From Sneathiella sp. (GTDB lineage: Bacteria; Pseudomonadota; Alphaproteobacteria; Sneathiellales; Sneathiellaceae): a DNA stretch of 32,788 nucleotides. The notes under the pieces are model-generated. The model was not told the origin of the DNA. It did not search any database and was given only the letters and a program-made list of their open reading frames with translations. Positions within the stretch are counted from its first letter, which is position 1, and the number at the start of each line of letters is the position of its first letter. The stretch is taken from contig JAIOYL010000016.1 of the NCBI GenBank assembly GCA_021741195.1, positions 1 to 32,788 on the forward strand, given 5' to 3'. Of the stretch, positions 17,446-18,930 are shown in pieces. A program made the position numbers and the translations under genes.

Positions 17446-17474
17446 TCGACAACCGAAATCATCAATATTATCAT
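17446..17474 (+). promoter_or_regulatory. Candidate promoter of the globin-cyclase operon
   Basis: TCGACA (17446-17451) and TATCAT (17469-17474) each differ from consensus at one base and have the ideal 17-bp spacing. Transcription would begin near 17481, giving a leader of about 45 nt with AAGGA 10 bp before the ATG. Confidence 0.5.
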
Positions 17475-17525: not shown

Positions 17526-17897
17526 ATGGCAGCACAGACCTTATTTGAAAAATATGGTGGATTCTCTGCTGTCAGCAAAATCGTCTTAAGCTTCTACGAT
17601 GTACTTCTGGACAGCGATGATGTGGGACCCTTCTTTGACGATGTCGACATGGCCCGCCTGATCGATCACCAGACAAAATTCATAGCCTCGCTTCTGGGCG
17701 GCCCCGCCTCTTACACCGACGAACAGCTTTATCGTCTGCATGAACGGCTGGATCTTGAGGACAGGCATTTCGATGAAGTCGTCGCAACACTGGCGGGCAC
17801 CCTCGCAAAACATGGTTTCAGCGCGGAAGACGTTGCTACGGTGGAAGCGAGGCTGGAGATCAGGAGATCCGTGATTGTCAGACAAAATGTCGATTGA
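17526..17897 (+). CDS. Group 1 truncated haemoglobin
   Basis: The 123-aa protein is a compact globin of the truncated-haemoglobin type. Family marks are FYDVLLDSDDVGPFF (helix B and CD region), the MARLIDHQTKFIASLLGGP run and the proximal haem ligand H72 in LYRLHERLDLEDRHF. Such proteins bind oxygen or nitric oxide and serve in detoxification or sensing in the cytoplasm. The ATG at 17526 follows AAGGA by 10 bp; a TTG at 17490 is less likely. The end overlaps the start of the adenylate cyclase gene, so the two are probably made together. That overlap suggests, but does not show, that the globin reports gas status to the cyclase. Confidence 0.88.
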   Translation: MAAQTLFEKYGGFSAVSKIVLSFYDVLLDSDDVGPFFDDVDMARLIDHQTKFIASLLGGPASYTDEQLYRLHERLDLEDRHFDEVVATLAGTLAKHGFSAEDVATVEARLEIRRSVIVRQNVD

Positions 17898-18930
17898 AGC
17901 CATCAACGAGCAGCTCCTGCGCGCGATCGGTGTAGGGGTTGCCCTTCTCGATGCGGCAGATCACAGCTTTATTTACCAGAACGATACCTTCGTCGAATGG
18001 TTCGCCACCGAAGCGGAGCACAAACGGCTGGACGACCTCCTCCCCGATTTCGATATCGGTGCATTGGAAGCGGAACTCGACGGGAACAAACGCTTCACCG
18101 CCGAGATTAAGCACAGGAAAAAACGGCGGGAGCGGATTTTCGCCATCGAGTTTACGCGGGCCGCCGATAACGGCAATGGCATGATCATCCTGGTCTGCCA
18201 GAATATCAGCCGCATCCGCGAGCTTGAATCGATGATCGACAGCTATTCGCAGATGGTCGAGCGTAACACGCGCGAGATCAAGCGCGAGAAGGAGCAGGTC
18301 GAGAAACTCCTGCTCAACATGATGCCGCGCTCGGTTTACGATGAATTCAAGACTTTCGGCGTTGTCATCCCCAAGCTTTATGACCCGGTCTCGGTTCTGA
18401 TGCTGGACTTTGTCGGCTTCACGCAGATGGCCGCCTCCGCCGATCCGGCCGTGACGGTGAGTGAGCTTAACGACATCTACAGCGCCTTCGACCGCATCGG
18501 CGAGCAATACGGCTGCGAACGGATCAAGACCATGGGGGATGCCTATATCACCGTGTCCGGCCTGCCCGACCCGACGCCGGATCATGCGCGGGCCGTCGCC
18601 AACGTAGCGATCCGCTTCATCCGCTATCTCGAGCGGCGCAACGAGGGACATCCCAACCAGTGGCGCTGCCGCATCGGGATTACGAGCGGCCCGGTGGTCG
18701 GTTCCGTTATCGGCATCCAGAAATATGTCTACGACATCTTCGGGCCCGCCGTGAACCTCGCCTCGCGCCTGCAGGACTGCTCGGAGGCGATGGAAATCAC
18801 GACCAACGAGCCCATCTATGAGATGCTGAAGGATCAGTTCCGCTTCGAGCATATCGGCAAGCAGGATATCCGTGGCTTCAATGAACAGGACCTTTATCGT
18901 CTCAGGGACAGCCGCCAGCCGATCCGCTAG
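17887..18930 (+). CDS. Class III adenylate cyclase with PAS-like N-terminal domain
   Basis: The 347-aa protein has a PAS-like sensor domain (about 1-107), a charged coiled coil (about 110-145) and a class III cyclase domain (about 165-345). All key residues are present: metal-binding D174 (MLDFVGFT) and D218 (MGDAY), adenine-selecting K214 and D283 (YDIFG), and transition-state N290 and R294. The lysine/aspartate pair favours ATP over GTP, so the product should be cAMP. No membrane segment is seen. The start may instead be the TTG at 17875, which has AGGAG 8 bp upstream, whereas the ATG at 17887 has it about 20 bp away. It overlaps the globin gene by 11 or 23 bp. The stop shares CTAG with convergent rodA. 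Confidence 0.9.
   Translation: MSIEAINEQLLRAIGVGVALLDAADHSFIYQNDTFVEWFATEAEHKRLDDLLPDFDIGALEAELDGNKRFTAEIKHRKKRRERIFAIEFTRAADNGNGMIILVCQNISRIRELESMIDSYSQMVERNTREIKREKEQVEKLLLNMMPRSVYDEFKTFGVVIPKLYDPVSVLMLDFVGFTQMAASADPAVTVSELNDIYSAFDRIGEQYGCERIKTMGDAYITVSGLPDPTPDHARAVANVAIRFIRYLERRNEGHPNQWRCRIGITSGPVVGSVIGIQKYVYDIFGPAVNLASRLQDCSEAMEITTNEPIYEMLKDQFRFEHIGKQDIRGFNEQDLYRLRDSRQPIR

Follow-up and report, generated by a model that had tools for sequence, protein, structure and literature searches.

In soluble guanylate cyclase a haem domain acts through a PAS domain and a coiled coil, while stand-alone bacterial H-NOX proteins act in trans on a kinase or diguanylate cyclase that is their operon mate. 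Truncated haemoglobins occur in every domain of life, most of them with no settled function. In photo- and phytochrome-activated adenylate cyclases a light sensor, a helix and a class III cyclase lie in the same chain. In the globin-coupled sensors, among them the globin-coupled diguanylate cyclases (PMC5549716) and HemAC-Lm of Leishmania (cited in PMC12755159), a 3/3 sensor globin is fused in one chain with its partner.

The window analysed here is a stretch of 32,788 nucleotides from Sneathiella sp. (contig JAIOYL010000016.1; genome G000, 3.38 Mb in 220 contigs), in which the gene of a truncated haemoglobin overlaps that of a PAS – signalling-helix – class III adenylate cyclase. As in soluble guanylate cyclase, the PAS domain, signalling helix and class III cyclase come in the same order, with a full-length structural alignment and an HNOBA coiled-coil match, and a putative haem gas sensor stands in front. 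Unlike soluble guanylate cyclase, this sensor would be a separate truncated globin and not an H-NOX domain, residues K214 and D283 are predicted to select ATP, and the system is bacterial. The stand-alone H-NOX systems likewise consist of a small haem protein and a separate signalling enzyme in one operon, but here the haem fold is different and the partner is a class III cyclase, which may decay with a kinase alongside. As in the globin-coupled sensors, globin sensing would be tied to a nucleotide cyclase; the globin is however of the 2/2 truncated type and a separate protein. By definition (separate chains, truncated globin) the pair is not a globin-coupled sensor, and having no H-NOX it is not an H-NOX system. 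The sensor – helix – class III cyclase logic is also that of the light-activated adenylate cyclases, with haem as the presumed input. In the open-access PMC literature that we searched there was no description of a globin-cyclase pair of this kind, and the RefSeq names of the two genes are generic only.

The globin, the cyclase and their overlap

The globin gene (17526..17897, + strand; ATG at 17526, TGA at 17895-17897) specifies a protein of 123 residues. It has a Pfam Bac_globin match [E 1.5e-13, above the family cut-off], and among proteins of solved structure its best matches are without exception group I truncated haemoglobins (TrHbN), which bears out the truncated type given in an earlier note on this DNA. 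Based upon alignment to Tetrahymena trHb, the haem-pocket residues are TyrB10 (Y24), LeuE7 (L45), HisE10 (H48), GlnE11 (Q49) and the proximal HisF8 (H72). H72, Y24 and two GG motifs (G11–G12 and G58–G59) are kept in 65/65 family globins; together with the Bac_globin domain and a length of about 120 residues these are the features of TrHbN, and the protein is a predicted haem binder of the group I truncated class. The Protoglobin profile scored 14.2 bits, under its cut-off of 25, and the protein is by this measure not a 3/3 sensor-type globin (Protoglobin/GCS family). We take the Tyr/Leu/Gln distal pocket (TyrB10/LeuE7/GlnE11) to be that of NO-dioxygenating HbN; HisE10 (H48) is presumably a possible extra haem ligand, as in GlbN of Synechocystis with its bis-His, redox-active haem.

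Sequence family, TyrB10, GlnE11, HisF8 and both GG motifs are thus shared with other group I truncated haemoglobins (HbN, GlbN, Tetrahymena trHb). Unlike these, the paired family has an obligate cyclase neighbour, F13, S17 and a DHQTKF signature in helix E (residues 47–52; codons 17664..17681, + strand), which is common to paired globins and absent in stand-alone ones. Hardly any paired globin departs from D47, H48, T50, K51, F13 or S17, which are seen in 0–15% of a stand-alone set (13 further group I globins that the class scan returned); the general haem residues are common to both sets. The nearest unpaired globin (L025) keeps D47–H48, but has A and Q at positions 50 and 51. Such a signature fits a conserved contact patch, or some special haem chemistry.

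The cyclase gene (17887..18930, + strand, 347 residues) was identified from its ORF, Pfam matches, a structural model and Foldseek. Pfam returned Guanylate_cyc [E 2.2e-44], a weak PAS match and the coiled-coil end of HNOBA; no HNOB (H-NOX) domain was found by Pfam search in either the globin or the cyclase. The AlphaFold model (52-row alignment, mean pLDDT 82) consists of a PAS domain (residues 1–106; 17887..18204, + strand), a long helix (residues 108–145), a short helix and the cyclase fold. The signalling helix, or cyclase transducer coiled coil (residues 107–160; 18205..18366, + strand), to which the HNOBA match belongs, is better conserved than any other part of the pair. The class III cyclase homology domain (18367..18927, + strand) carries both metal Asp (D174 and D218), the substrate Lys/Asp pair and the transition-state residues N290 and R294, that is, every residue by which class III adenylate cyclases are recognized, and the fold agrees. 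K214 and D283, for which ATP specificity had been claimed earlier, align with the ATP-selecting Lys and Asp of solved adenylate cyclases. We therefore predict an ATP-specific adenylate cyclase with complete catalytic residues. With the model as query, Foldseek returned solved adenylate cyclases first, followed by soluble guanylate cyclase over some 370 columns covering PAS, coiled coil and cyclase; for this reason the modelled protein looks like soluble guanylate cyclase minus H-NOX. That the PAS domain itself might carry the haem was considered and rejected: it has no conserved His across the family, and haem on the PAS is therefore unlikely.

The two reading frames overlap by 11 nt (17887..17897, + strand), so that the stop of the globin gene lies inside the start of the cyclase gene, as had been noted before. 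An alternative cyclase start, TTG at 17875, is better spaced from an AGGAGA in front of it. We prefer the ATG at 17887 because it corresponds to an M1 conserved in 59/65 family members. A promoter-like site (TCGACA(N17)TATCAT 17446..17474, + strand), identified by consensus match only, lies 52 nt before the globin ATG; the consensus scan gave no other + strand site just upstream of the pair, nor any from the globin start to that of the cyclase. The shared promoter proposed in the earlier note is plausible. Upstream of the globin gene there is a tRNA-Lys gene on the other strand, and rodA is convergent with the cyclase gene, the stops overlapping by 4 nt (18927–18930).

Conservation of the gene pair

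When the globin alone was used as query against one genome per species, 80 loci were obtained. Of these, 79 have the same PAS-cyclase gene immediately behind the globin gene and in the same orientation, and the 80th is cut by a contig edge (79/79 testable loci). Conversely, an even draw of 385 genomes from the class contained the cyclase (E below 1e-50) in 17, each with the globin directly in front (17/17). None of the 13 other group I globins had such a cyclase adjacent, nor did we find a paired-type globin without a cyclase or pseudocyclase among the loci tested. The pairing is far above chance, and the conservation that the earlier note had named as a check of its proposal is amply borne out. 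Within the same genus the cyclase is missing from two genomes, neither of which has a strong globin match; the distribution of the pair is therefore patchy, both genes being present or absent together.

Among named loci those of Sneathiella are closest. Most of the others belong to the alphaproteobacterial Rhodobacterales and Stappiaceae, with gammaproteobacterial representatives in Marinobacterium, Granulosicoccaceae and Arenicellales, and two in Chloroflexi; many of the carriers are marine. Spacings between the two genes group around two values, –4 nt (ATGA) and –11 nt, and 59/98 loci overlap (a few loci being counted twice). At every locus read the two proteins have ORFs of their own, and the earlier note was right to set them apart from globin-coupled sensors, in which both parts share one chain. 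A possible true fusion at L023 was rejected on account of a stop codon between the two, and at L150 (genome G027) the pair is broken by in-frame stops, reflecting either a decaying copy or assembly errors. We do not use mirror-tree correlations as evidence (globin distances against PAS 0.72, coiled coil 0.67, catalytic domain 0.65), since linkage alone predicts values of this sort.

The window's genome has another arrangement (G000:C157:2835-4532, L010), where a different group I globin is followed by a GAF – coiled coil – cyclase protein. This pair, with its gap of about 40–130 nt, was rejected as a system; homologous globins occur in 14 other genomes without such a cyclase within 1.5 kb.

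Loss of catalytic residues and a linked histidine kinase

N290 and R294 are intact at 49 loci, and at 30 one or both are lost, usually together with K214R. One of these 30 cyclases also lacks both metal Asp. In the Granulosicoccaceae, the cyclase relative at L047:4374-5390 has lost both metal Asp (D174G and D218G) and so very probably has no catalytic activity.

A specific PAS-PAS histidine kinase (called by HMM, E below 1e-80) lies near the cyclase at 29/30 decayed loci versus 0/49 intact ones [Fisher p 9e-21, relatedness not removed]. It is directly downstream on the same strand at 25 loci, and divergent upstream with an OmpR-type regulator at four. It is absent from a single decayed locus, L106, a draft sequence whose reading frame is disturbed; two of the 49 intact loci have an unrelated kinase that matches weakly. 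On the tree the association needs two changes, one not being excluded, and it may accordingly rest on one or two evolutionary events. Both the decay at 30 loci and its link to the PAS histidine kinase are new here.

Outside the 80 loci, an intact cyclase has the same kinase-regulator pair nearby at L137:2202-5171, in the nearest relative outside Sneathiella, and at L145:8778-12910. The kinase linkage may therefore be older than cyclase decay, and these two loci are possibly an intermediate stage. A search of the window's genome at E 1e-60 gave no such kinase. The idea that the kinase family is specific to pair loci was rejected, the response regulator having relatives in many genomes without the pair.

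Certain neighbours recur at decayed loci, namely OsmC with two NAD(P)/FAD oxidoreductases, or a glutaredoxin-fused PLP cysteine-synthase-like enzyme with a PLP decarboxylase (L045, L072, L089, L092, L095-L098, L100, L101 and L104, upstream; L053, L059, L064, L079, L085 and L088; L181). They are almost never seen at intact-cyclase loci. On a plasmid of Novosphingobium pentaromativorans the order is OsmC, two flavoproteins, globin, cyclase, kinase, regulator, PLP enzyme and PLP decarboxylase. These neighbours are possibly the target pathway of the kinase.

Within the decayed clade the globin pocket and the DHQTK residues are invariant (16/16). The mean coiled-coil distance per site is 0.068, versus 0.072 in an intact clade of similar breadth, and globin and PAS are less diverged than in that comparison clade. 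The catalytic domain, in contrast, is twice as divergent (0.31 versus 0.16). Conserved globin, PAS and helix beside a diverged catalytic part indicate that selection keeps the former without catalysis.

The globin as a candidate sensor subunit

We favour, with moderate confidence, the truncated haemoglobin as a separate sensor subunit of the downstream PAS – signalling-helix – cyclase. The globin would bind a diatomic ligand, or shift the redox or coordination state of its haem, and contact in trans the PAS/coiled-coil part of the dimeric cyclase. The change would travel along the signalling helix and set cAMP synthesis, the globin thereby altering cyclase activity; the cAMP might be read by CRP/FNR-type proteins, some of the seven cNMP-binding proteins encoded in the window's genome. 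By analogy the pair probably works like a soluble guanylate cyclase in two pieces that makes cAMP, the truncated globin standing for H-NOX and ATP for GTP. In relatives with a decayed catalytic site and a PAS histidine kinase the output would probably be protein contact and not cAMP. Direct binding, the ligand (O2, NO or redox) and the sign of regulation are parts of this model that we infer.

The earlier note had offered sensor and scavenger as options. As a scavenger or NO dioxygenase the globin would make no direct contact; both proteins would feel the same stress and co-transcription would only co-ordinate dose. One might expect as much from the Tyr-Leu-Gln distal pocket, resembling that of M. 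tuberculosis HbN, and a review assigns NO detoxification to the HbN-type globin group (PMC4720485). Co-conservation, too, fits a common stimulus without contact. Scavengers are however usually alone, whereas the paired globin always comes with a cyclase or pseudocyclase among the loci tested; stand-alone group I globins have no need of T50 and K51 in helix E; and the conserved coiled coil outlasts loss of the catalytic site. Selection without catalysis is hard to explain by a mere scavenger, and would be natural for a globin working by contact with a PAS-helix sensing unit. We consider the scavenger unlikely, and of the two options the earlier interpretation is partly supported on the sensor side, given a globin that stays unchanged even beside a decayed cyclase with a linked histidine kinase, and a soluble guanylate cyclase layout without H-NOX. 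The observations on which that interpretation was built are confirmed.

Less likely still is a globin that serves as a redox or ligand-delivering partner, passing electrons or NO to a PAS domain (for example to C104) which would be the true sensor. The invariant HisE10 might, as in GlbN of Synechocystis, give a bis-His redox-active haem, and C104 is kept in 58/64 cyclases; but C104 is not invariant and the PAS lacks a conserved His. It is very improbable that the cyclase regulates the globin, with cAMP controlling expression of the operon and the globin as effector. The shared operon and the seven cNMP-binding proteins would accommodate this, yet decay of the catalytic site has not broken up the pair, and no CRP-type box was noticed in front of the globin, as judged by eye.

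The pattern of decay and kinase linkage favours the trans-acting globin sensor, with an output that may be able to pass from cAMP to a phosphorelay. With somewhat less than even confidence, we would extend this to a widespread kind of two-protein gas sensor, of which a free truncated haemoglobin is an obligate subunit and in which output has moved from cAMP to a histidine kinase, perhaps repeatedly, via a pseudocyclase adaptor. Because this truncated haemoglobin has a signalling partner from which it is nearly inseparable, two small soluble proteins suffice to test its function directly. If the sensor model is true, the pair would amount to a counterpart of soluble guanylate cyclase made of two bacterial proteins, through which O2, NO or redox state feeds into cAMP in abundant marine bacteria; the decayed loci would show, as a natural experiment, how a catalytic domain next to a kinase becomes an adaptor.

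The globin and cyclase of L044 were also modelled as one chain by AlphaFold, the stop being read through; the domains are confident and the pTM is 0.53, the model carrying no interface information. Among the matches listed in a structure search with this model, coverage is mainly of the cyclase domain.

In other alphaproteobacteria (L029, L034, L035, L037 and L038) CheA itself contains a group I truncated globin, inserted after the Hpt domain and before the dimerisation/ATPase part; the L038 protein carries two globin domains, of which one lies in the CheW region. This suggests that the globin-bearing CheA proteins are haem-sensing chemotaxis kinases.
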